Shown here piece by piece: positions 4,365 through 18,391 of a stretch of 40,244 bases of DNA. Numbering within the stretch: position 1 is the stretch's first letter; every line of letters starts with the position of its first letter. The stretch is from NCBI GenBank assembly GCA_910574865.1, contig CAJTDN010000025.1, forward strand, positions 1 through 40,244, given 5' to 3'. Position numbers and translations under genes: made by a program. The notes under the pieces were generated by a model that was not told the DNA's origin, ran no database searches, and worked only from the letters and a program-made list of their open reading frames with translations. Origin of the DNA: Lachnospiraceae bacterium (lineage in GTDB: Bacteria; Bacillota; Clostridia; Lachnospirales; Lachnospiraceae).

Positions 4365-7300
4365 TTATATATATCTAAACTTGTTGAATGGGTTGCCGCC
4401 CAGCATCTGGTCGGCCATCGCCTGCCCCATGACCTTTTCAAAGTGGGGGTCGGATAGCAGGGCGGTTTTGAATTCGTCGTAGTTTTTCACGTTTGGCAAA
4501 CTGAGATTATCAATCTGAATCGTGACGTTTTCGTTGTTGTTTTGCGTGTTCTGCGGTGCCGTCTGGAACCACTTCATTTGCTCATCTGTCTGTTGCCTCA
4601 TTCTTTGCGCGTCCGGGAAAACGTATTTCCCCGTCTTGCGCATTCCGAGGCGGTCTTTCATTTTCAGCATGGCTTTCAGGTTCTGCGTGGCCTCGGACGT
4701 GATGACCGTCTCCCCGGTTCTGACGAGCGCGAAGCCCGTCTCGCCGCTCTGGCGCAGCAGCCCCTGGATTTCCCCGCCTTCGCTGAGGCCGTGGCTCTTC
4801 ATCCAGTTTAGCATGTTAATGTTCTGGCTGGCCGAGCCCGTGTATGTGCCGGAAAATCCCATGGCCGCGTAGTAGCGGGCCATCTGGCTGAAGCTGCTGT
4901 CGTAATCGTGGTATTTCAGCCGGTCGACGATGGAAGTCTCCACGTTCAGTTTGTTTTTCGGGTACTCGTCCTTCCTATGCACGAAGAACGAGGTGTCCGT
5001 CCGGCTGCCCGCGGGTTCCAGCGTCTGCAGTTCCTGCTTCGGGGCTTCCTGCGCCGGCGGCGTGGGCGCCTTGTTCGCGGCCGCCTCCTGCCTTGTCTCC
5101 AGCGCGGCGACGTTGTCCGCCGCTTCCTGCCGTGCGTCCCCGGCCATGGCGGAAACGAAGTTCCTGATGCCGTCCAAAGTCTGCTGTATGCTCGTAAGTC
5201 CCGCCGTCATGCCGCTGCCGTACGTGGAGACGATGGAGCCGGCCCCGCCGTCGTTTTTCCAGATGTTTTTCATTTCGTCGGACAAGGCCGTCCCCACCGC
5301 CGCCGTGGCTTGTTCAAGCGTGGCCCTGATGCCTTCCGCGTTCGCGTTGGCCGTGTCTTTCATGCTTTCGAGGACGAACTCGACGTCGTCCAGCCGCTGG
5401 TTGAAGAGCTGCTCGTATTCGGTGTAAAGGGCATCCATCAGCCGTTCCTGGTCGGACACCCACTTCTCGTACTCGGTTTCCTCAAGGTCCGTTTTGGCCT
5501 CGTCCAGCTCCAGCTTCAGCTGCTGGACTTTGGACGCCGCCTCTTCCGAGTCGTCCCCGGCGTACGCGTTCAATTGCTTTTCCAGCGAGGCGATGTTCCC
5601 CGTCTTCTCGGCAATCGACTTTTGGTAGTCGTACAAGTCGCGCTCCGCCCCCAGGGCTTCCTTGCGTTTGTCAATCAGTTGTTGCAGCTTGTCCAGGTAG
5701 GCGTCGTATCCTTCCGACATGAGGTCTTTCACCGCCTCGATTTCGTCATAGGCCGCGTCGATGTTGTCCCGCTGCGCTTCCAAAAATTCGTTCCGCTTTT
5801 CGATTAACTCTAAGTTGTACGGATCCTTGGCCAGCATTTCGTTGATTTTCAAGATTTCCTTCGCGTAGTCGTCGGCCTGCGCCATGTAGACGTTGTAGTT
5901 CAGGGCGTGCAGCCCTTCCGCCGCCGTCCCGCGCCTGGTGCGCCGCCGTGAACCGGCAAAGGCGGAGTCGCCGTCTTCCACGAAACTTCCCTGTTTTTCC
6001 AGCAGCCCGATCAGCCAGTCGGCCTCTTCGGTCAGCTTGGACGTGTACTCCTGCTGTTTCTCGAAGTAGTCCCATTTCAGTTCCCGCAGGGCGTTCTGGT
6101 GCTCGTAGAGCGAGGTCGTGGCCTCGGTGATGGCCTTGTCCACGTCGAGCACGGAATTGTACATGTCGTACCATTCCTCGCTGTATTTCTCGATGTTGCC
6201 GGCCTTCATGGCCTGGGCCAGCGCGTCCGTGAGCGCGTCGTATTCTTCCTTCAATAGCGAAATGTGGCCTTGCTCCATCTTGATGAGGCTGTCGTAGTAT
6301 GCCGTCCCCGCCAGGTGCCCGCGTGCCTCGGCCTGGTCGATGTAGGCATCTATCATGTCGAGTGAATATTCCATGACGGACAGCCGGCCCTCGAACATCT
6401 GCGTCGCGTGCTCGAAAATTGTCTTCCCCAGATCCGCCAGCGTGTCGTTCAATTCCTCGGCCTCCTCCTCGCACTTCCTGGCCTTCTCGTACCATTTCTG
6501 GAAGTCGGAAATCTGTTGTTTCAGCCCCTCGTCGGAAATGTCCTCGATGGCGATGGCCCCGTCCTTGACGAGGTTCTTGTAGTGCTCGGACAAGCCGACC
6601 GCGTCGGCCTTCTTCATGTATTCCTGGTAGGCTAAAACCTGCCCCCAGACCTGGCCGCCCACTTCCAGGATTTCCTGGTTCAGTGCGCTGTTTCGTTCCG
6701 ACCAGCCCTTGTAGGTGCGCCCGACCGTCTGGTCGAGCTTCTTGACGTGCCGCTCCAGGCTTTCCAGCTTGTTCTCCACCCAGTCGAACGTCTCCACGGT
6801 CTCCTTGGCCGCCTCGGAGGCACCGCCACCAGAACCACCGGAGCCGCCGCCCGAGCCGCCAGAACTACCTGGGACGCGGCCGCCGGAGCCGCCGGTTCTC
6901 TTGCCGTAGAATTGCGCGGGGTCTATTTTGGTGGTCTGGTATTGCGTGGCTATGGCATCTGATAGAAGGTTTTCCAGTGCTCCAATTGCCATGTTTTGCA
7001 TGCCTTTTACCAAGATTCCGCTACCAGTTGCTTGACCGGTTGTTTTGAGCGGAGAAATTTCGATGGACGTGCCATGGAGCTTGGCCAGCATGGTCGCCAA
7101 TACTTGGATATAGGAAGCGGAAGCACCCGCCGCGTTGGCGATGGCGATAATCTGGTTGATATCGTCCGTCGTGTCCAGTTTCATGTTGTTGACATCCATC
7201 TTCGCGAATGCGAGTTGCGCAAGGTAGGATGCCGTTTCGTTGGAAGCGACGCCCTCGTTTAAAATGGCTGTTATTTCTTCATAAGTGACATCGGCCAGGT

Positions 7301-10300
7301 TTTTTCCCGCCAATGCCGCGATATCCTTCGTCATGGCAAGATATTCATTGTACGCGGCCAGTTTCTGCTCCACAATCGCCGCCGCGTTCATGATTCCGTT
7401 TTGTTCCAGCATCGCGATGGTGGCCTCCTTGGTTTCTTCCGTGAGGTCATCGAAAATGCCGCTGTTGTCCAAGATGGTCGATACAAACTGGCCGAAGGCG
7501 TTCTGGCACGCGTCCACGTCATCCGAGTTTTTGATGATGGCATGGACAAAGTCGCCATACGCGCTTCCCGCATCCTTGAACGCGTTTTCGAATTCCTCGT
7601 TGTTCAGGATGGAAAACCAGTCAACCCCGTCCCCGTTTTGGATGCCTTCGTAAGCGCTCTTCAGGATTCCCAACTTGTCCGCCATGGTCTGGGCACCGTC
7701 GGCGGCAGAATTGTAAAAGGACTCATCAATTCGTGGCGTGCCTTGCGATTCTTCCTGCTGGTGCCGTAGTTCCATTAATAGGTCGATGACATTTTGTGCT
7801 TCTAGGCCGTATTGTCTGGCGCGTTCACAAAGCTGTTCGAAGGATTCGTTACTGCCTTTGCCATTATAGATGTCGCTTAAATCCGTTTCGGACAAATCTT
7901 TTAAATCGTCTGCCAGTGCTGAAACAGTATTATTATTTTGCATGAGCTGGTAAAAGGAGTATGCCTTGTCGTTTGCCCCCGCAAAGACACCGTTCATGAT
8001 GTCGGAGTATTCGCCCCAGACATCCTTGTTTTTTATGATCTGGCCTTCCATCCTCTGCATGTCGTGCCATGCGGCTTCCACGTCCTCGTCATGATAAGGG
8101 TTTTCGCTTTTTAGCACCGCCTCGTTATAGGCATTCACCGCCTCGATGGCATCGTAATAACCGTCGGATAAATCCTCGTCGGCGTAAATCTGTGCCATTT
8201 TGGCCTCGTCATATGTTTCGCCGTATGTTCCGACGATATCGTTCACGCGGTTCAAGGCATCCTGGGAGCTGGCATAAATGTTTTCAAATATGGCGTATAT
8301 TCCGTCGGCATCTTTGCCGGACGCTTTTTGTAACTCGTGTACCCCGTTTAAGAAATCGTTTATGGCATCAGAAGCCTCTTTTGCATCCCCGACAAATTCA
8401 AATCCATTGGCCGTGAACTGGATTCCGTTCATTCCGGCTAGTTGTTTGATTTCTTCCACGATGTCATTTTCGGCGTCTGTTAAGTTTAAAGCGCTCAATG
8501 CGTCCAGCGAACCAAGATAATAGGGATTTTCAGCCTCCATTTTCTTTGTCGCCTCGTTGATGCCGGTGCGGTTTTCGTTTAAAAACTGCTTTGCCTTTTC
8601 CTGGTTTAACGCCCTGATTGCCTCCGTCTGGTCGTTATACGCGTCCGTGACGAGGTCGATGATGCCACATTCATCGCCGAACTTGTTGTTCAACTCGGCT
8701 TGCAGCGTGAGCAACTGTTTCTTGATGTTATAGGTTTCTTCCTCGTTCCCCTTGGCGTCCTGCAAGGCTTGCCGCAGCTCCTGGTACTTGGAAACATAGT
8801 CGTTGATGGACGAGGCGGCTTCCTTATATTCATCAACGGCATCCTTCGTTTTTTGTAAGGCCTCTTCGGTTGCCTGGTTATGGTAGCTTATGAAGGACGA
8901 GATAATGCTGTATGCCGTCGAGAGGCCCGCGAGGATGACGCTTGCCTTTTCGAGCGTGCTCATCGCCACCCAGGCCGCTTTGACGGAAGCGGTTAGACCA
9001 GTGAAGGTTCCCTTCAGCACGTTTACGGAAGAGGCGTTGGCCGCGTTGGCGATTGTGTTGGACTTTGTGGCATCGGTTAAGCCTAGCTTTTCTAGCTTGG
9101 CTTTCGCTTCTTCTTCGGTGAGTTCGTGCTGTGTGAGTATCATGATTTGGTCATTTTCTTTAAGTTGCTTTTGCGATAACAATAATTTCAGATTTTTTTC
9201 TGTCAATGCTTGAGTTGCATCGCCCAAATCTCTTAAAGTTTCATTTCTTGAATCAACGTCTATTGGTAAATTCTTTATTTGCTGTAATGCATTTCCAAGC
9301 GTGTTCATCTGTGTGACCGTTCCAACTATCGCGTCGCCGAAGGTCGCCATGCCCTGGCCGATTTTTATGGTCGCGATGGCGATAAGGCTGTTTTTCAAGA
9401 TGTCTGCTTTGTTGACGATGTCCAACAACATCGTTCCGAATTCTGCCGCATAGGAGACCATGTCCCCGTTTACGAAGCCGGAGTAGGTCTCGACCAGCTT
9501 GCTCTGAAACTGTTGCAAATGCGCTTCCGTGCTGTCTAGGTATGTTTCGTATTCCTTCTGTGCCGAACCGCTTGCATGCAGGCTGTCTTGTAAAAGGGAT
9601 TGCGCATTCGCCATGCTTTTCAAGGTCGCGTCGATTGCCGATGCCTGGTTCTTCCCGCCAAGGATGTCCAGAAGCGTGCCTTGGTTTTTGGATGACATGT
9701 CTTGGTAGACTTCGGAAATGTCCAGGAAGATGTCGTAAATCGAGCGAACCGTCTCCTTGTCATTTTCCAGGATGTCCACACCCGTCAGCGCCTTGATGGC
9801 CTTCTGGTTGTCGATGACGGACATCACGCCGTCCACGTCCTCCCCGGCCCGCGCCAGCTCGTCGGATGCCCCGCGAATTCGCAAGGACGAGTTTCCAAGT
9901 GCCGTGGCCAGTGCTTCGGCGTTTTGGTACTGTTGGTTGCCCGCCCCGAGCAGGGCCAGGAATTCATCCACGCTCGTGTTCGTCTCGGAAAAGGCGGTTC
10001 CCACGGACTGCACGCCCCGGGCCAGTTCGGCGGTCGTGATGGAGGAGGTGCTGCCTAGTTCGGCATATTTGTCAATCAAAGCCTGCGCCTTGCCGGCCGC
10101 GTCGCCGTACCCGTCCACCGTGTCGTAGGCGTTTATCCCCGCGGCGATTGCCTGGGTGGAGTCGGAAAGGCTTATGTCCCCCACGTTGGCCAGTATCACG
10201 CTTTTTTCCGCGAGCTTGTCGCTCGTGCCCAGGTCAAAGCCCAGCCTGGAGAATTCTGTCGCCCCCTCCATCAGCGTCTTTTGAGACGTGGCCAGTTCTT

Positions 10301-10916
10301 GCGCCCTTTGATTGCATCTTGATAAGTAATCGTCATAATCGCCACGGCTTAGTTCGTCATTGGCCTTCAGCAGGCTGGTGTATGTCTTGTCGAGGTCGAT
10401 TGCCGTGTCAACCGCCTGCCGTATCTGGGAGAGAATCTCCTTTGAGATGGCGGCCGAAGAGAAGAAGTCCTTGAACCGTGCGGCCAGTTGCTTCCACTTC
10501 CCTTCAGCGGACTGGGCGGCGGATTCGCTGTTTTTTACTTCCCGATTGAAGTCTGCCAGTTGGGACTTGTCAATCTTTTGCCGCATCTCGTTTCTCATAG
10601 ATTGAAGTTCCGCTTTCATTTGGGACGTGTTCAGGCCGATTTCCAGGTCAGACACGGTCTTTTGCAATCCCTTGATGCTTTTTCGTAATTCGGCTTCCGT
10701 ACTCTTGTTCACTTTGATTTTCGTCCCGACATTGACCTTCATGTTGTCCAGTTCCTTTAATTGTCTTTTCAACTCTCTTGAAGCGAGTGTTTTTGAAAGC
10801 TTCGCCAACACCCTCACGTACATCGTGTTGTTCAACGATTTCAAGTCGTTGTTGATGGAACTTTTCGATAGCTGCTTGTTTAGTTTTGCTATCACGTCTA
10901 CTGTTAATTTGCTCAT
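4365..10916 (-). CDS. Phage tail tape measure protein, TP901 type, very long
   Basis: This encodes 2183 aa starting at MSKLTVDVIAKL; GGAGGA before this ATG excludes the longer upstream frame. The tape measure is wrapped by the tail tube and sets tail length. Order: helical N-terminus (1-170); TP901 core (about 175-450; SRLGFDLGTSDKLAEKS, ALLGAGNQQYQNAEALATAL); hydrophobic stretch near 655-675; long helical middle; Gly/Ser linker (about 1345-1370); coiled-coil C-terminal 800 residues. Using the family rule of about 1.5 angstrom per residue, the tail would be over 300 nm (inference). DNA coding for the part after the linker is clearly more GC-rich, suggesting a mosaic join. Three truncated copies of its 5' end lie upstream. 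A terminator and a terminated moron gene precede it, so it needs read-through or a late promoter. Confidence 0.9.
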   Translation of the reverse strand: MSKLTVDVIAKLNKQLSKSSINNDLKSLNNTMYVRVLAKLSKTLASRELKRQLKELDNMKVNVGTKIKVNKSTEAELRKSIKGLQKTVSDLEIGLNTSQMKAELQSMRNEMRQKIDKSQLADFNREVKNSESAAQSAEGKWKQLAARFKDFFSSAAISKEILSQIRQAVDTAIDLDKTYTSLLKANDELSRGDYDDYLSRCNQRAQELATSQKTLMEGATEFSRLGFDLGTSDKLAEKSVILANVGDISLSDSTQAIAAGINAYDTVDGYGDAAGKAQALIDKYAELGSTSSITTAELARGVQSVGTAFSETNTSVDEFLALLGAGNQQYQNAEALATALGNSSLRIRGASDELARAGEDVDGVMSVIDNQKAIKALTGVDILENDKETVRSIYDIFLDISEVYQDMSSKNQGTLLDILGGKNQASAIDATLKSMANAQSLLQDSLHASGSAQKEYETYLDSTEAHLQQFQSKLVETYSGFVNGDMVSYAAEFGTMLLDIVNKADILKNSLIAIATIKIGQGMATFGDAIVGTVTQMNTLGNALQQIKNLPIDVDSRNETLRDLGDATQALTEKNLKLLLSQKQLKENDQIMILTQHELTEEEAKAKLEKLGLTDATKSNTIANAANASSVNVLKGTFTGLTASVKAAWVAMSTLEKASVILAGLSTAYSIISSFISYHNQATEEALQKTKDAVDEYKEAASSINDYVSKYQELRQALQDAKGNEEETYNIKKQLLTLQAELNNKFGDECGIIDLVTDAYNDQTEAIRALNQEKAKQFLNENRTGINEATKKMEAENPYYLGSLDALSALNLTDAENDIVEEIKQLAGMNGIQFTANGFEFVGDAKEASDAINDFLNGVHELQKASGKDADGIYAIFENIYASSQDALNRVNDIVGTYGETYDEAKMAQIYADEDLSDGYYDAIEAVNAYNEAVLKSENPYHDEDVEAAWHDMQRMEGQIIKNKDVWGEYSDIMNGVFAGANDKAYSFYQLMQNNNTVSALADDLKDLSETDLSDIYNGKGSNESFEQLCERARQYGLEAQNVIDLLMELRHQQEESQGTPRIDESFYNSAADGAQTMADKLGILKSAYEGIQNGDGVDWFSILNNEEFENAFKDAGSAYGDFVHAIIKNSDDVDACQNAFGQFVSTILDNSGIFDDLTEETKEATIAMLEQNGIMNAAAIVEQKLAAYNEYLAMTKDIAALAGKNLADVTYEEITAILNEGVASNETASYLAQLAFAKMDVNNMKLDTTDDINQIIAIANAAGASASYIQVLATMLAKLHGTSIEISPLKTTGQATGSGILVKGMQNMAIGALENLLSDAIATQYQTTKIDPAQFYGKRTGGSGGRVPGSSGGSGGGSGGSGGGASEAAKETVETFDWVENKLESLERHVKKLDQTVGRTYKGWSERNSALNQEILEVGGQVWGQVLAYQEYMKKADAVGLSEHYKNLVKDGAIAIEDISDEGLKQQISDFQKWYEKARKCEEEAEELNDTLADLGKTIFEHATQMFEGRLSVMEYSLDMIDAYIDQAEARGHLAGTAYYDSLIKMEQGHISLLKEEYDALTDALAQAMKAGNIEKYSEEWYDMYNSVLDVDKAITEATTSLYEHQNALRELKWDYFEKQQEYTSKLTEEADWLIGLLEKQGSFVEDGDSAFAGSRRRTRRGTAAEGLHALNYNVYMAQADDYAKEILKINEMLAKDPYNLELIEKRNEFLEAQRDNIDAAYDEIEAVKDLMSEGYDAYLDKLQQLIDKRKEALGAERDLYDYQKSIAEKTGNIASLEKQLNAYAGDDSEEAASKVQQLKLELDEAKTDLEETEYEKWVSDQERLMDALYTEYEQLFNQRLDDVEFVLESMKDTANANAEGIRATLEQATAAVGTALSDEMKNIWKNDGGAGSIVSTYGSGMTAGLTSIQQTLDGIRNFVSAMAGDARQEAADNVAALETRQEAAANKAPTPPAQEAPKQELQTLEPAGSRTDTSFFVHRKDEYPKNKLNVETSIVDRLKYHDYDSSFSQMARYYAAMGFSGTYTGSASQNINMLNWMKSHGLSEGGEIQGLLRQSGETGFALVRTGETVITSEATQNLKAMLKMKDRLGMRKTGKYVFPDAQRMRQQTDEQMKWFQTAPQNTQNNNENVTIQIDNLSLPNVKNYDEFKTALLSDPHFEKVMGQAMADQMLGGNPFNKFRYI

Positions 10917-10948
10917 TTTTGTATTTCCTCCTTTAAAAATTTGCATAC

Positions 10949-10973
10949 AAAAAGACGGCTCTTTTGAACCGCC
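10949..10973 (-). terminator. Terminator of zinc-ribbon gene 1
   Basis: Minus strand GGCGGTTC-AAAA-GAGCCGTC followed by TTTTT, between the zinc-ribbon stop (11011) and the tape measure start. The stem is conserved in the two sister cassettes while the loop differs. Confidence 0.8.
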
Positions 10974-11010
10974 TTGTGCCTTAAGTTTTCTGATTCTAAA
11001 TTTTATTGTT

Positions 11011-11610
11011 TTACCACTCACTGCCACAGTTGTCGCAGTGCCATTGTTTGTGTGCCTTTCGGGAAAGAACGCCCCACACGGCGACATCCACGAGTTTTGA
11101 TGTTGCAGATAACTTGCGGATGTTGGTCGAACTACAAGTGGGACATTTGGGGGTGTTCTTTGGTTCATTAAAAGATATAATTTGTTTTTTGGGATTTACC
11201 CAATCTTCTGGGCGTTTGGAAAGAATGTGGTTTTTCAATTCGTTTCCACAATGCCTACATCTACTATGATATTTAGAACTGATAAGTACATAGTCTTCGG
11301 TTCTGGCAATTGGATATGTTGCAGACCCAACAAGCCAATTACATTTAGCACAAGTGGTGTAGGTGCTTCCTGAATCCGTTGCGCCGAATGTACCAGGTTC
11401 ATCTATTTCATACCACCAAAAGTCAATCTTATCCTCGTCAAACGAGTCATATGGCCCTAATTCAACGCCGTCACCAAAACTAAGTGGTTTCTCCTGCTTT
11501 GGTTCTTCTTCATCAAAAGCGGCTCCACAAACTGGACACTCCGTCATGTCCTTCGCCTTTTCAAATGGAAAAATCGTCCCGCATGATTCACAAACAATTT
11601 TCTTTCCCAT
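11011..11610 (-). CDS. Triple zinc-ribbon protein, phage moron copy 1
   Basis: This encodes 199 aa with no membrane segment. Three zinc-ribbon units are visible: CESC...CPVC (about 8-30), CAKC...CRHC (about 85-120) and CPTC...CDNC (about 155-197), the last with the pattern KCPTCSSTNIRKLS...QWHCDNCGSEW. An acidic segment follows the first ribbon. I do not recognise a named function; zinc ribbons usually bind nucleic acid or protein. It has its own sigma-A promoter, a GGAGG ribosome site and its own terminator, so it is an independent unit inserted in a late tail operon, as lysogenic 'moron' genes are. Copies 2 and 3 lie upstream. The first 65 and last 50 residues are almost identical between copies 1 and 2, while residues about 66-140 are only about half identical. 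Confidence 0.85.
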   Translation of the reverse strand: MGKKIVCESCGTIFPFEKAKDMTECPVCGAAFDEEEPKQEKPLSFGDGVELGPYDSFDEDKIDFWWYEIDEPGTFGATDSGSTYTTCAKCNWLVGSATYPIARTEDYVLISSKYHSRCRHCGNELKNHILSKRPEDWVNPKKQIISFNEPKNTPKCPTCSSTNIRKLSATSKLVDVAVWGVLSRKAHKQWHCDNCGSEW

Positions 11611-11646
11611 GGTAAAACCTCCCTCGCGTTTTCTTGGCTAGTCATG

Positions 11647-11675
11647 ATTGTACCATTATCTAACCGCGATTTCAA
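11647..11675 (-). promoter_or_regulatory. Sigma-A promoter of zinc-ribbon gene 1
   Basis: Minus strand TTGAAA (11675-11670), 17-nt spacer, TACAAT (11652-11647), 37 nt before the ATG. It is flanked by the inverted repeat GGTTAG / CTAGCC, an imperfect form of the operator-like repeat seen at copies 2 and 3. Confidence 0.8.
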
Positions 11676-13405
11676 TAGACACAAGGACACTTCCTGAACT
11701 TTCTTTTCATGTGTTGTTCATCCTTTGAAATGGCGGCCGAACAGAAGAGGTCCTTGAACCGTGCGGCCAGTTGCAATGCATTACCAAGTGTATTCATCTG
11801 TGTGACCGTTCCGACGATTGCATCGCCAAAAGTTGCTATTCCCTGGCCGATTTTTATGGTAGCGATGGCGATAAGGCTGTTTTTCAAGATGTCTGCTTTG
11901 TTGACAATATCTAACAACATCGTTCCGAATTCTGCCGCATGGGAAACCATGTCACCATTGACGAAGCCGGAGTAAGTTTCGACTAGCTTGCTTTGGAATT
12001 GTTGCAAATGTGCTTCCGTGCTCTCCAAGTAGGTTTCGTATTCTTTTTGTGCGGAACCGCTTGCGTTTAAGCTGTCTTGTAGAAGAGACTGCGCATCTGT
12101 CATGCTGCTTAAGGCCGCATCGATTGCCGGTGCCTGATTCTTTCCACCAAGGATTTCTAAAAGCTCACCTTGTTTTTTACTTGACATGTCCTGGTAGACT
12201 TCGGAAATGTCCAGAAAGATGTCATAAATCGAGCGAATCGTCTTTTTGTCATTTTCCAGGATGTCCACGCTCGTCAGTGCCTTGATGGCCTTCTGGTTGT
12301 CGATGGCGGACATGACGCCGTCCACGTCCTCCCCGGCCCGCGCCAGCTCGTCGGACTCCCCGCGAATTCGTAAGGAAGCGTTACCAAGTGCCGAGGCCAG
12401 TGCTTCGGCGTTTTGGTACTGCTGGTTGCCAGCACCGAGCAGTGCCAGGAATTCATCCACGCTCGTGTTTGTTTCGGAAAAGGCAGAACCAACGGATTGC
12501 ACGCCCCGTGCCAGTTCGGCGGTCGTGATGGACGAGGTGTTGCCTAGTTCGGCATATTTGTCAATCAATGCTTGTGCCTTGCCCGCCGCGTCGTCGTACC
12601 CGTCTACCGTGTCATAGGCGTTTACTCCCGCGGCGATTGCCCGGGCAGAATCGGAGAGGCTCATGTTCCCCACGTTGGCCAGCATGACGCTTTTCTCCGC
12701 AAGCTTGTCGCTCGTGTCCAGGTCAAAGCCTAGTTTGGAGAATTCTGTCGCCCCCTCCATCAGCGTCTTTTGAGACGTGGCCAGTTCCTGCGCCCTCTGG
12801 TTGCATCTTGACAAGTAATCGTCATAATCCCCGCGGCTTAGTTCGTCATTGGCTTTCATCAGGCTGGTGTAGGTCTTGTCAAGGTTGATAGCCGTGTCAA
12901 CCGCCTGCCGTATCTGGGAGAGAATCTCCTTGGAGATGACGGCCGAGGAGAAGAAGTCCTTGAACCGTTCGGCCAGTTGCTTCCACTTCCCGGAAGCGGA
13001 CTGCGCGGCGGACTCGCTGTTTCTCACCTCTTTGTTGAAGTCTGTCAGCTGGGACTTGTCAATCTTTTGCTGCATCTCGTTTTTCATAGACTGGAGCTCG
13101 GCCTTCATCTTGGATGTGTTCAGTCCGATTTCCAGGTCGGACACGGTCTTTTGCAAGTGCTTTACGCTTTTCTTTAATTCGGCCTCCGTGCTTTTGTTCA
13201 CCTTGATTTTCGTCCCGACATTGACCTTCATGTTGTCCAGTTCCTTTAACTGCTTTTTCAACTCCCTTGAAGCGAGCGTCTTGGAAAGCTTGGCCAGCAC
13301 CCTCACGTACATCGTGTTGTTCAACGATTTCAAGTCATTGTTGATGGAACTTTTCGATAGCTGCTTGTTTAGTTTTGCTATCACGTCTACTGCTAATTTG
13401 CTCAT
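11672..13405 (-). pseudogene. Truncated tape measure copy 2 (577 aa)
   Basis: It starts MSKLAVDVIAKL with a GGAGGA site and is nearly identical to the intact tape measure through the TP901 core up to MNTLGNALQ, about residue 540. There the frame jumps back to a second copy of the segment LAARFKDLFCSAAISKD, which in the intact gene lies near residue 150. It then ends with EQHMKRKFRKCPCVY. The same ending occurs in copies 3 and 4. The -35 box of the next zinc-ribbon promoter overlaps the last codons. A recombination product of a tandem array; it could still be translated but lacks most of the tape measure. Confidence 0.85.
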
Positions 13406-13437
13406 TTGTGTATATCCTCCTTTAAAATTTTGCATAC

Positions 13438-13463
13438 AAAAAGACGGCTCTCCATGAACCGCC
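13438..13463 (-). terminator. Terminator of zinc-ribbon gene 2
   Basis: Minus strand GGCGGTTC-ATGGA-GAGCCGTC then TTTTT; same stem as after gene 1, different loop. Confidence 0.8.
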
Positions 13464-13500
13464 TTATGCCTTAAGTCTTCTGGTTCTATATTTTGTTGTT

Positions 13501-14100
13501 TTACCATTCACTGCCACAGTTGTCGCAATGCCATTGCTTGTGTGCCTTTCGGGAAAGAACGCCCCACACGGCGACATCCACGAGTTTTGAGGTTGCAGAC
13601 AACTTTCGGATGTTTGTTGAACTGCAGGTGGGACATTTGGGGGTGTTTTCAGATACATTAACCGCACTAGTTTTTCTCCTTGAAGCTACCCATTCTTCCG
13701 GGCGTTTTAAAAGAATATGGTTCTTCATAATGTTTTCACAATATTTGCATGTTTTGTTTTGTTTGGAGTCAATCAATACATAATCACCTGATTTAGCGAT
13801 AGGATATCGTGTGCAACCTACAACTCGTTTGCATTGAGTACAAATTAAATTTGTATATCCGTTGTCTGTCTCGCCATAAACTCCCGGTTCATGTATGCTT
13901 TCCCACCAAAAGTCAATCTTGTCCTCATCAAATGAGTCATATGGCCCTAATTCGACACCTTCACCAAAACTAAGTGGTTTTTCCTGCTTCGGCTCTTCTT
14001 CATCGAAAGCCGCTCCGCAAACGGGACACTCCGTCATGTCTTTCGCTTTTTCAAATGGAAAAATCGTCCCGCATGATTCACAAACAATCTTCTTTCCCAT
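13501..14100 (-). CDS. Triple zinc-ribbon protein, phage moron copy 2
   Basis: This encodes 199 aa, the same length as copy 1. The ATG follows GGGAGG; the longer upstream frame is only the end of tape measure copy 3. The ribbons are CESC...CPVC, CTQC...CKYC and CPTC...CDNC. The ends match copy 1 almost residue for residue, but the core (ESIHEPGVYGETDNGYTNLI and onward to the third ribbon) differs at about half of positions while all zinc cysteines are kept. That pattern suggests selection for fold with diversification of the surface, or replacement of the core by recombination between shared ends. Own promoter and terminator. Function unknown. Confidence 0.85.
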   Translation of the reverse strand: MGKKIVCESCGTIFPFEKAKDMTECPVCGAAFDEEEPKQEKPLSFGEGVELGPYDSFDEDKIDFWWESIHEPGVYGETDNGYTNLICTQCKRVVGCTRYPIAKSGDYVLIDSKQNKTCKYCENIMKNHILLKRPEEWVASRRKTSAVNVSENTPKCPTCSSTNIRKLSATSKLVDVAVWGVLSRKAHKQWHCDNCGSEW

Positions 14101-14137
14101 GGTAAAAACCTCCCGCGCATTTTCTTGGTTAGTCATG

Positions 14138-14166
14138 ATTGTACCATTATCTAACCATGATTTCAA
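14138..14166 (-). promoter_or_regulatory. Promoter and operator-like repeat of zinc-ribbon gene 2
   Basis: TTGAAA (14166-14161), 17-nt spacer, TACAAT (14143-14138). A 7-bp inverted repeat TGGTTAG / CTAACCA with 18-nt spacing encloses the -10 box, suggesting repressor control. The repressor itself is not identified. Confidence 0.75.
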
Positions 14167-14690
14167 TAGACACAAGGACACTTTCTGAAGATTCTTTTCA
14201 TGTTTTGTACATCTTTGGAGATGGCGGTTGAAGAGAAGAAGTCCTTGAACCGTTCGGCCAGTTGCTTCCACTTCCCGGAAGCGGACTGCGCGGCGGACTC
14301 GCTGTTTTTTACCTCTTTGTTGAAGTCTGCCAGCTGGGACTTGTCAATCTTTTGCTGCATCTCGTTTTTCATGGATTGCAGTTCGGCCTTCATCTTGGAC
14401 GTGTTCAGTCCGATTTCCAGGTCGGACACGGTCTTTTGCAAGTGCTTGATGCTTTTCTTTAATTCGGCCTCCGTGCTCTTGTTCACCTTGATTTTCGTCC
14501 CGACATTGACCTTCATGTTGTCCAGTTCCTTTAACTGCTTTTTCAACTCCCTTGAAGCGAGCGTCTTGGAAAGCTTTGCCAGCACTCTCACGTACATCGT
14601 GTTGTTCAACGATTTCAAGCCATTGTTGATGGAACTTTTTGATAGCTGCTTGTTTAGTTTCGCTATCACGTCTACTGTTAATTTGCTCAT
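14163..14690 (-). pseudogene. Truncated tape measure copy 3 (175 aa)
   Basis: It starts MSKLTVDVIAKL with a GGAGGA site and runs in frame through the helical N-terminus to FKDFFSSTAISKD. It then switches to the ending VQNMKRIFRKCPCVY shared with copies 2 and 4. Only the first ~150 residues of the tape measure are present. Its 5' flank carries the terminator and stop region of zinc-ribbon gene 3 in the same spacing (95 nt) as at the other copies. This shows that the duplicated unit is zinc-ribbon cassette plus tape-measure start. Confidence 0.85.
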
Positions 14691-14722
14691 TTTTGTGTTT
14701 CCTCCTTTAAAATTTTGCATAC

Positions 14723-14747
14723 AAAAAGACGGCTCTTTCGAACCGCC
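14723..14747 (-). terminator. Terminator of zinc-ribbon gene 3
   Basis: Minus strand GGCGGTTC-GAAA-GAGCCGTC then TTTTT. Confidence 0.8.
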
Positions 14748-14784
14748 TTATGACTTGAGTCTTCTGATTCTAGATTTTGTTGTT

Positions 14785-15316
14785 TTACCATTCACTGCCA
14801 CAGTTGTCGCAGTGCCATTGCTTGTGTGCCTTTCGGGAAAGAACGCCCCACACGGCTACATCCACGAGTTTTGATGTTGCAGACAACTTGCGGATGTTTG
14901 TTGAACTGCAGGTGGGACATCTGGGGGTGTTATCGCTTTCTATGGTAAGTGGTCTTGTATCTACCCAGTCTTCAGGACGCTTGGAGTGAAGTGCTATAAT
15001 CACCTACTCGAGCAATTGGATAGGGGGCAGCACCAACAAGTTGTTTACATTTGGTACAAGTGGTAAGGACTTTCCCAGGATCGGTTGCGCCATAGGTACC
15101 TGGTTCGTTGATTTGATACCACCAAAAGTCAATCTTGTCCTCATCAAACGAGTCATATGGCCCTAATTCGACACCTTCACCAAAACTAAGTGGTTTTTCC
15201 TGCTTCGGCTCTTCTTCATCGAAGGCTGCTCCGCAAACGGGACACTCCGTCATGTCCTTCGCCTTTTCAAATGGAAAAATCGTCCCGCATGATTCACAAA
15301 CAATCTTCTTTCCCAT
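14785..15316 (-). pseudogene. Zinc-ribbon moron copy 3, internally deleted
   Basis: The N-terminus is the same as in copies 1 and 2 (MGKKIVCESCGTIFPF...), followed by a third version of the core (CTKCKQLVG, then YPIARVGDY). There 68 nt are missing relative to the 600-nt sisters and the frame is lost, ending in STSLQAS. The out-of-frame remainder (KRPEDWVDTR through WHCDNCGSEW) is intact. The second CxxC of the middle ribbon falls in the deletion. Promoter, ribosome site and terminator are still present, so this is a recent inactivation. Confidence 0.85.
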
Positions 15317-15353
15317 GGTAAAAACCTCCCTCGCGTTTTCTTGGTTAGTCATG

Positions 15354-15382
15354 ATTGTACCATTGTCTAACCATGATTTCAA
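15354..15382 (-). promoter_or_regulatory. Promoter and operator-like repeat of zinc-ribbon gene 3
   Basis: TTGAAA (15382-15377), 17-nt spacer, TACAAT (15359-15354). Perfect TGGTTAG (15342-15348) and CTAACCA (15367-15373) arms span the -10 box. Confidence 0.75.
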
Positions 15383-15533
15383 AAAACACAAGGACATTTT
15401 CTGAAAATTCTTTTCATGCTTTGCCCATCTTTTGAGATGGCGGTTGAAGAAAAGAAGTCCTTGAACCGCGTGGCCAGTTGCTTCCATTTCCTTTCGGCAG
15501 ACTGAGTGACAGATTTGCCGTCAATTTGTTCAC
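15379..15533 (-). pseudogene. Tape measure remnant, copy 4
   Basis: A GTG start context (GTGAACAAATTGACGGCAAA) corresponds to the tape measure start. Within a few codons the frame changes and reads SVTQSAERKWKQLATRFKD, FFSSTAISKD, then MKRIFRKCPCVF and stop. This is the upstream end of the tandem array: only start-like sequence, the KWKQLA segment and the common ending remain. Confidence 0.7.
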
Positions 15534-15921: not shown

Positions 15922-16329
15922 ATGGCAGGGGAAAGACCGATGAAAATCTGTCCCAAATGTGCGCTTTTTGTAATGAATCCGACATGTGCGTTTTGTAAGG
16001 TACCAATGGTTATAACGGATATTACTGCAAAAGAATCATTACACATGCCTAGTAAGCAAAGAGAAGAATTAATCAACCATTACATCGAAACCCTCATCAA
16101 AGATACTTATGACCCGAAAATAAGGGAGGAACGTGAAGAGTGGGAAAGAAACCAAGGCTCTCCATGGGCTAGCTATCAGGGGGCAAAAGCAAAATGTCCC
16201 ACTTGCGGCAGCACGAATGTCCGTTCCATTTCCGGTGCGGAACGTGGCGCGAGCATCCTGGGGCTGGGCATTTTTTCAAACAAGATTAACAAATCGTTTA
16301 AATGCAACAGTTGCGGATATACATGGTAA
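15922..16329 (+). CDS. Zinc-ribbon protein, plus-strand
   Basis: This encodes 135 aa, with a very strong AAAAGGAGGTGA ribosome site 6 nt before the ATG. N-terminal ribbon CPKC...CAFC (residues about 10-25), charged helical middle (40-85), and C-terminal ribbon KCPTCGSTNVRSIS...FKCNSCGYTW. The C-terminal module is the same type as in the three minus-strand moron proteins (CPTCSSTNIRKLS...CDNCGSEW), although only distantly similar. It is the only plus-strand gene inside the tail region and has its own terminator. Function unknown; a regulatory or nucleic-acid-binding role is only a guess. Confidence 0.8.
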   Translation: MAGERPMKICPKCALFVMNPTCAFCKVPMVITDITAKESLHMPSKQREELINHYIETLIKDTYDPKIREEREEWERNQGSPWASYQGAKAKCPTCGSTNVRSISGAERGASILGLGIFSNKINKSFKCNSCGYTW

Positions 16330-16439: not shown

Positions 16440-17205
16440 GTGAGCAGTCATCAAAGTCATGTTTACATGGCCTTGGCGACTGCAGCAGGGGATTTCACTC
16501 CATCAACTCATCTGTGTTTTTATGTTTATTCAGAGATAAACTCCGTGTCATCGCCCTCTTGTTCGGCGATGATGTTTCCACAATCGTGTGATCGTAGGAG
16601 ACAAGATTCCTAACGTCAATTACTAACCGTCACACTCGGCAAAGTCTGGAGCACGCCTTACAGCACCGGGAATTTCACCCGGCACCGCCCGCCCTGGTGC
16701 TCTCTGGGATTAGCACTCATCCATTGAGGTTTCTATCCTTAAAAGGATTTCTGTACGTCACCGTACGCTGTCATCTGCTCGTTGTCATCAGGCCCCGCGT
16801 TGTCACTGTGCCGTCCGTGTCACCACGGAAGGGGAGTAGCGTTGCCTGTATACTGACTTTCAAGACCCTTAATTGCGAAAGGGTGCATCCATACTGTAGA
16901 GGGATGCCATATCTGCCATGCCCTCAGCGGGCATGCGGTGGTTGATTCCACACGGGGTTCAATCGTGTATTTCACGAAGGACGCATGTAAAAACCCACCC
17001 TCTGGATGGGAAAAGCATGCATAGTGGGCATATTCGGTTACAAGTTTGTAAGGTCTGCGCATTTACTGCGCTGACCTTACGAAAAAGTGATGGTGTAAGG
17101 CATATGGCCTATCGCGGAGCGATTTTAATGGACATATGCAGTTGCGGTTCAGCCTTGGCTGAACTGTAACCATATTCGGTTATGAGGGGTCACATTTCAC
17201 CCTAC
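16440..17205 (-). ncRNA. Candidate large structured RNA or RNA-bearing mobile remnant
   Basis: About 760 nt without a credible protein gene but dense in hairpins. Read on the minus strand: GTTCAGCCAAGGCTGAAC (17147-17164); GTAAGGTC...GACCTTAC with inner GCGC pairs (17048-17080); GCATATG...CATATGC enclosing ATCGC-TCC-GCGAT; CATGCCC-GCTGA-GGGCATG; CCGTG-GTGA-CACGG; GTACG-GTGA-CGTAC; TCATCGCC...GGCGATGA; and GCAGTC...GACTGC. Two stems close on GTGA, a GNRA tetraloop only on this strand, which argues for an RNA transcribed with the phage genes. The motif AACCGAATATG occurs twice. I cannot assign a class. Candidates are an omega-RNA-bearing IS200/IS605-type remnant, a group II intron fragment, or a large ornate phage RNA such as ROOL or GOLLD. 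It abuts the cut 3' end of the 17180-18391 tape measure. Confidence 0.45.
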
Positions 17206-18391
17206 CCACGTTTTTTAGTCCGGCGAACAGTCCCGCCCCGACACCGATGGTTCCGAGCGACCCGAGGCTTTCCGTGACCTTGTTGACGACGGAGAGGATG
17301 CCGTCCAGGCCGTTTGTCACCGCGATGACGGCGTCGGAGTTGACGATGTTCGATATGGTACTGGTCAGCGTGTTGTACAGCCGGTTCGACGCGCCTTCCC
17401 ACGAGTCGGCCAGTTTTTCGGCATCCCTCGCCATCGAGCCCGCCCCGGACTTGTATTGCCCGAGCATGGATTCGTAAGTGGACCACTGGCCAAGAAGCGC
17501 GTCCATCTGTGCCGCGGTCTGGCCGCCGCCGAGGGAGTCCAGCAGATTTGCCTTGCGCGTGTCCGAGTCACGGAGTTTGTTGTACGCGCTGGATAATTCG
17601 CCCAACACCTCCATCGGGTCGCGAAGTCCAACCACGCCGTCCCTCGTTTCCCGCAGTCTGACATTTAACGCGTTGCAGGCGCGTTCATAGGCCGAGAGTC
17701 CTTCCGCGCTGACGCCTTTTCCCGCGTCGGACACCTGACGGGTGTAAAGCAGGATGGTTTCGAGGGCGTTTGCCGCCTGTGCGCTTCCCGCCTGCGTCGT
17801 CTCCATCATGGTTCCGAGCGCGGCGGTCGCCTCGCCTGCGTCCACCCCGAGGGATGCGGCGGTCTGGCTTATGGACGACAGTCCCTCGGACAGGTCTGCC
17901 ATATTTACGTTGTTCTTGTTCGCTATCTGGTTCATGCCGTCGAGCACCTTGGTCAGGCTGGCGACGGAGCCGTTCATCTTGTAGGTCTTGTCGGTCGTGA
18001 GTATCATCCGCTCGGCCAGGCCGGCGGTCATGTTGCCCGCGTTCTGGGCGGCCAGGGAAAGCTCGGCCAGTTCCGACACGTTTTGGTGTCCCGCCCGCAC
18101 CATTTTTTGCACGCCGGCCAGGTAGTCCGTGGCGGCCTTCCCATACTTGCCCGCGATGTCGAAGGACTCCTTGCCGAGCTGGGCGAGCACCTTCTTCGAG
18201 AGCTTGTCGTTTTCCACACGGATTTCCGTCAGCATGGAGTTGACCGCTTTCAAGTCGGATATCGCGCTCTGGATTTGGGAAACCAGCCGCTTGACGCCGG
18301 AGTTTAAGTTGAAGCTCTTGCCGATGGTCTGCGAGGCCTCGGAGATTTCTTTCGTCAGGGCTTTTAGTAATTCATCGATGGAATGTTTCAT
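17180..18391 (-). pseudogene. Second tape measure gene, 3'-truncated
   Basis: 403 aa of a TP901-type tape measure, different in sequence from the 2183-aa one. Helical start (MKHSIDELLKALTKEIS), then core motifs AGKYGKAATDYLAGVQKMV, MADLSEGLSSISQTAASLGV and ANLLDSLGGGQTAAQMDALL. After GLFAGLKNVGR the frame runs into the structured element and stops within five codons (VKCDPS), so most of the protein (usually over 700 residues in this family) is missing. It lies directly downstream of the tail tube gene, the normal place for the tape measure of that phage. The 4365-10916 gene may therefore come from a different phage. Confidence 0.8.

Follow-up and report, generated by a model that had tools for sequence, protein, structure and literature searches.

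What is the hairpin-dense stretch that adjoins a fragment of a tape-measure protein (TMP) gene in a Lachnospiraceae prophage? A first-pass annotation of the window (the whole stretch of DNA analysed, 40,244 nt) had described it as probably a large structured RNA on the minus strand at 16440..17205, lacking a plausible protein gene. On sequence grounds, we consider with about 90% probability that the stretch belongs to a divergent group I intron in the prophage TMP gene, of which it forms the 5' catalytic part. The assignment draws on a U.G pair in P1, a match for P10, a P7 helix, in-frame TMP exons and, in relatives, a G preceding exon 2, which together point to group I. Both the U.G guide pairing of an exon 1 with a terminal U and the G preceding exon 2 are traits of group I introns.

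Structure and covariation of the RNA

The stretch folded better than shuffled sequence on the minus strand (z −7.8) and also on the plus strand (z −5.6; 20 shuffles per strand), in agreement with its description as hairpin-dense and structured. The one open reading frame tested within it (16820-17062, minus strand) matched no Pfam or PHROG family and was rejected as protein coding. A search of the window's own genome resolved the stretch into three components: a repeat at about 17036-17171 (about ten copies elsewhere in the genome), a core found twice more on contig C33 at 93-98% identity, and a repeat at 16451-16505 that returned 19 further rows. The stretch is composite, and the boundaries first assigned need correction: the RNA starts at 17203, and its recognisable core stops near 16545 rather than 16440. 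Read by eye, the ends of the larger repeat are inverted repeats. Because the L058 and L009 copies lack this insertion, AACCGAATATG, previously suggested as a repeated motif marking a tertiary contact, is instead a direct repeat flanking the inserted element. Features are listed in Table 1.

Table 1. Features in and around the putative intron, with positions in the window
Feature	Position	Strand	Basis or remark
Predicted exon 1, N-terminal TMP part, ends ...GLFAGLKNVG	17204..18391	minus	PHROG 4211 positions 602-941, E 1.1e-35
P1 exon strand GUGGGU; predicted 5' splice site after 17204	17204..17209	minus	Pairs with 17024-17029 (helix 1)
Putative group I intron, 5' catalytic part including 136-bp inserted repeat	16545..17203	minus	Alignment of 12 relatives, pair counts; 3' limit approximate
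Direct repeat AACCGAATATG flanking the MITE-like insertion	17171-17181 and 17029-17039		
MITE-like inserted repeat	17036..17171		Ends GGTTACA/TGTAACC; flanked by AACCGAATATG; missing in L058 and L009 copies
P10 strand GAAUAU	17030..17035	minus	Complement of relatives' exon 2 AUAUUC (GUAUUC: one wobble); by eye
P1 guide strand GCCCAC, U.G at splice site	17024..17029	minus	
GNRA hairpin, loop GUGA at 16820-16823	16815..16828	minus	GNRA in 12/12 relatives (by eye)
P7 5' strand GAGCA (GACUA in some relatives)	16698..16702	minus	Helix 11; two pairs change on both sides
Putative P3 3' strand CAGGGC, partner GUCUUG at 16861-16866	16691..16696	minus	Best of the P3 candidates
P8 hairpin (16686-16678 with 16670-16662)	16662..16686	minus	Helix 12
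P7 3' strand UGCUC (UAGUC in some relatives)	16649..16653	minus	Helix 11
Long-range contact 3' strand, with 16871-16876 (GCAAUU/AAUUGC in relatives)	16616..16621	minus	Helix 9; 5/6 pairs in window
UUGUGGA, complement of UCCACAA loop before exon 2 in relatives	16577..16583	minus	Putative contact
Second interspersed repeat, outside intron core	16451..16505		19 further genomic rows
Antisense zinc-ribbon-like gene, 135 aa, likely cargo	15922..16329	plus	Pfam Zn_ribbon_IS1595 E 5e-4, below curated cut-off

Covariation among homologues, the check proposed with the original description, supports a structured minus-strand RNA. Across 12 introns of the window's subfamily, the hairpins were kept, with 97.2% of cells paired, and 46 of 81 pairs changed on both sides compared to 20.3 in shuffled alignments (0/500 shuffles reached 46), figures that are flattered by the structure having been chosen on the same 12 sequences, whereas the exon-guide test described below is independent of that choice. 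Pairing fell to 32-45% in slid versions of the alignment. The covarying structure includes P1, P7 and a long-range GCAAUU/AAUUGC contact; the helix scan also lists short helices that look like chance. P7 (helix 11, 96.7% paired) encloses P8 (helix 12, 89.8% paired), and the best P3 candidate, GUCUUG/CAGGGC, is nearly invariant, with a mismatch in 2 of 12 introns and a 2-nt overlap with another hairpin; no helices could be assigned to P4-P6. The order of P7, P8 and the P3 candidate is that of group I introns. Of two stems noted earlier as closing on GNRA tetraloops, CCGTG-GTGA-CACGG proved to be one in all 12 aligned relatives (GUGA, GCGA or GCAA); for GTACG-GTGA-CGTAC the stem stands, and the loop is GNRA in only two of the 12 (both read by eye).

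The Rfam group I model RF00028 did not match the window or L104 at E values up to 10, and the group I model found nothing in 14 loci (E up to 1) or in seven loci at the gathering threshold. As a control, RF00028 found the T4 td and nrdB introns at E of about 1e-6, with scores of 36.9 and 35.7 bits, both below its gathering threshold of 50 bits. One subfamily carries a possible Tetrahymena-like motif, which is not counted as evidence. The classes initially considered, namely omega-RNA/HEARO, group II introns, ROOL, GOLLD and OLE, were likewise not borne out (no Rfam match, E up to 10).

Exon pairing and candidate splice junctions

The open reading frame listed at 17180-18391 (minus strand, 403 aa) reads seven codons beyond exon 1 into the intron and then stops. 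In the guide layout found among the introns, GAAUAU is followed by GCCNNN, which pairs with the end of exon 1. All 12 aligned relatives have U.G at the 5' splice site; L094 (= L048) and L110 have C.A instead, and their exons end in C. Exon and guide vary together across 25 introns (16 distinct exon/guide pairs): at exon positions −4 to −6, 39 of 48 possible pairs form. Shuffling, which ignores relatedness, gave 26.6 on average and did not reach 39 in any of 100,000 trials. When five weakly pairing introns were set aside, 34 of 36 pairs formed compared to 23.2 in shuffles (p 3e-5). Good pairing in these five (L097, L100, L101, L102 and L104) is confined to GGU/GCC, which argues against a uniform rule.

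A pattern that did not require a terminal G gave 23 hits in the loci, 12 of them TMP-linked or resembling repeats of such sites. A G precedes exon 2 in all 12, each reading AGUNNG before the junction and RUAUU after it. A second scan of the 25 introns did require G, so the G observation rests on the first pattern; it returned 20 candidate sites, of which 16 were kept, in 13 of the 25 introns. The four dropped (L057 +411, L088 +4403 and two in L134) lead to only 9-17 codons and have no hairpin. Kept sites lie 0.8-10 kb downstream, the shortest complete intron being that of L056/L064 at about 0.8 kb, and each of the 13 introns has one site before a long frame (660-2006 aa). No acceptable 3' site was found in the other 12 introns, which include the window's; four of the 12 had less than 1 kb to search, and the window had 17 kb. 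In L093, exon 2 directly follows the RNA and exon 1 lies off the contig. The exact acceptor pattern matched 2 of 397 genomes and was too strict to serve as a survey.

The predicted exons of most relatives fit together as one protein. Five of six exon-2 proteins begin at positions 924-964 of PHROG 4211, while exon 1 stops at 941; the L087 exon-2 protein did not match this family. A search of the phage collection with the joined-exon peptide found nothing, and uninterrupted TMPs for comparison (L111, L112, L122) were therefore taken from a search of family genomes with the end of the TMP N-part. Ten of 13 joined proteins align with these across the junction, the best at E 5e-158 (a C33 copy in the window's own genome) and the weakest at 3e-10; L009b passes the junction by 12 residues only, and those of L087, L088 and L091 do not align across it.

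A hairpin with a CCACA loop lies within 70 bases upstream of 13 of the 16 kept sites, with stems that vary and loops that hardly do (the L132 hairpin was picked by eye, the script's own pick being poor). Its UCCACAA loop is complementary to UUGUGGA in the 3' domain of the RNA. Since UUGUGGA hardly varies, we can only infer that this pairing may tether the distant 3' splice site.

The TMP transcript is accordingly read here as one that would be spliced. The guide GCCCAC would pair with the end of exon 1, with U.G at the splice site, and GAAUAU with exon 2 AUAUUC. Joining of the exons would continue KN-X-G into (I/V)F. Everything from the end of the catalytic part to the distant 3' splice site would be removed along with the intron, and passenger genes could therefore sit there without harm to the tail gene.

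Two other readings would dispense with splicing. A new ornate phage non-coding RNA, of the ROOL or GOLLD kind, could lie in the TMP gene and act as a free molecule: the RNA is large, structured, prophage-borne and without an Rfam match, and its GNRA loop and long-range contact are conserved. However, it pairs with the exon and tracks exon changes, the TMP is broken at the same codon and an in-frame exon 2 exists in 13 relatives, and we consider a free RNA very unlikely. Alternatively, ribosomes might bypass the structured RNA in a programmed manner, from KN-X-G to exon 2, since the last codon is immediately followed by a stem and the reading frame is regained beyond the gap. A gap of 0.8-10 kb, often with opposite-strand genes, speaks against this, and bypass would leave the exon-guide pairing unexplained; we reject it as extremely unlikely, given gap length, cargo and pairing.

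Relatives, insertion site and cargo genes

A DNA search recovered the RNA in another genus (L030, 72% identical), and a pattern search recovered it in two viral records, to which two viral pattern scans added nothing. With a covariance model of the 3' domain, matches came from 4 of 299 family genomes (one being the window's own) and, among 391 genomes of the class, from the window's own genome alone. A scan of genome contigs with an 18-base core gave 14 stretches. Twelve of these were run under their own names, of which eight match the covariance model and four do not (the RNA was not found in L063, L065, L072 and L073); L066 and L070 coincide with L059 and L058, both of which match. Against annotated phages and plasmids, a relative's RNA had no blastn match and the window query gave short matches only. 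By record titles, hosts are mostly Lachnospiraceae and other Clostridia, with one labelled Tenericutes.

The insertion point of the intron group in the prophage TMP gene appears to lie directly behind the glycine codon of KN-X-G. The TMP is broken at this codon in 15 donors (AAR AAY NNN GGY), and the proteins diverge despite the common break (L030 and the window share 37% identity). A query taken from the end of the TMP N-part matched 20 of 397 family genomes and brought in further loci in which unlike RNAs occupy the same codon.

Antisense open reading frames with paired-cysteine (zinc-ribbon-like) motifs occur in 9 of 13 complete introns (starts read by eye), in a position like that of the window's gene. 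The L087 protein matches a zinc-ribbon model below cut-off, as the window's does, and those of L057 and L089 had no profile match. Other genes differ among relatives. In L091, a GmrSD_N protein is followed by a 3' site (29 codons), genes that match no family, another 3' site (15 codons), an Mrr_N-GmrSD_N protein and then the site before a 1003-aa TMP part. L088 has two 3' sites, leading to 20 and 1694 codons, making L091 and L088 the two introns with repeated 3' splice sites. L132 holds a RelA_SpoT protein within the intron. Beside the RNA lie a PtuA gene in L090 (E 2.6e-129) and GmrSD_N genes in L092 and L094; no 3' site was found in these three loci, and the genes are therefore not placeable inside an intron. 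Judging from such matches, the cargo of some relatives resembles anti-phage defences (GmrSD-like and RelA/SpoT-like).

No homing endonuclease was found among 20 cargo proteins of relatives (Pfam; 10 also with PADLOC) and four downstream open reading frames of the window, a set that covers 24 of the 90 listed frames, and there was no transposase among the 20 cargo proteins scanned. This bears on whether the locus is instead a remnant of a group II intron or of an IS/IStron, an idea suggested by a cargo-bearing intervening element inside a gene. No transposase turned up in that set, neither group II nor HEARO models matched at E values up to 10, and the U-ending exon 1, the U.G guide pairing and the G before exon 2 are group I traits, which leaves such a remnant very unlikely.

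Several arrangements were observed nearby in related loci. The L009 locus (C33, minus strand, own genome) has two tandem copies of a unit in which a 243-aa gene pair, the TMP N-part and the intron are followed by the TMP C-part; C-parts and antisense frames differ between the copies. In L047, the same TMP gene is interrupted a second time ahead of the fixed codon, by an intervening element (5957-9253) with an 865-aa open frame that has repeated cysteine motifs. A skipping-rope RNA (RF02924, E 1.1e-13) lies at L046 7673-7754, about 0.8 kb upstream of the intron, and L116 has an intron remnant at about 1610-1660, where family sequence is lost soon after the guide.

In the putative intron of the window itself, exon 1 and the catalytic part are present, and the guide is intact behind the 136-bp repeat, which sits in the P1 loop. 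Because of this inserted repeat and the lack of a detectable exon 2, the copy is probably an orphan no longer able to make the full TMP. A separate complete TMP of 2267 aa (4365-11168) gives a single continuous match to PHROG 4211, and the prophage may therefore manage without the broken gene. Ahead of this complete copy, broken 5' ends of a second type of tape-measure gene recur in a tandem array on the minus strand (11168-15487). Each fragment breaks off near AISKD..MKR.FRKCPC and has a zinc-ribbon-like gene (MGKKIVCESCG...) behind it.

Comparison with known introns and significance

Phage group I introns (T4 td and nrdB, our control, and others) share with those described here the U.G pair in P1, P10, the terminal intron G, P7/P8 and insertion in an important phage gene. 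Unlike td and nrdB, which RF00028 finds (E ~1e-6), the introns here go unmatched, and they have a long 3' part with other cargo and no homing endonuclease in the 20 proteins scanned. Several downstream 3' ends also occur in a Clostridium tetani intron, in which one intron in a surface-layer gene is joined to alternative 3' exons; that intron, however, is a group II ribozyme.

The TMP gene of phage ICP1 is split by an intronic homing gene, and splicing of its transcript was seen by RNA-seq and RT-PCR (PMC10448857). The TMP gene is split in both cases, with splicing observed in ICP1 and inferred here, and ICP1 carries HNH homing genes where the present loci have antisense zinc-ribbon-like and other genes. 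In cluster J mycobacteriophages, introns that are most likely group I interrupt capsid and minor tail genes and are spliced by RT-PCR, and one holds an antisense LAGLIDADG gene (PMC3706429). Introns in virion genes are thus common to both, although gene and site differ, and the accessible part of that paper mentions neither repeated 3' splice sites nor defence-like cargo. Exon skipping in the SIOphi polymerase and Twort orf142 yields more than one splice product per phage gene (PMC11878797); the candidate alternatives here are instead repeated 3' splice sites behind successive cargo genes.

A possible though doubtful extension is that passenger genes dock in the intron under the protection of splicing. 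Each cassette, made up of a cargo gene and a 3' splice site of its own behind it (UCCACAA hairpin and AGUAUG at the junction with AUAUUC), would be stacked with others between the ribozyme and the real exon 2. Phages might in this way gain defence or accessory genes in a tail gene without breaking it, and the choice of 3' site may switch between full and truncated tape measures; the cargo may be of benefit. The accessible parts of PMC11318856, PMC8987985 and PMC4299906 contain nothing of such intron cargo docks, and no title among the literature matches listed concerned them, preprints and most subscription papers being outside the scope of that search.

An intron would explain the truncated look of these TMP genes. 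Our results suggest that the standard RNA library misses a set of phage group I introns. They also suggest that, in prophages of Lachnospiraceae and other Clostridia, introns of unlike kinds have repeatedly used a single TMP codon as their site, and that genes other than homing genes, some resembling anti-phage defences, can be carried in such introns. Should cassettes really be stacked behind successive copies of the 3' splice site, splicing would allow additional genes to be carried inside one that the phage needs.
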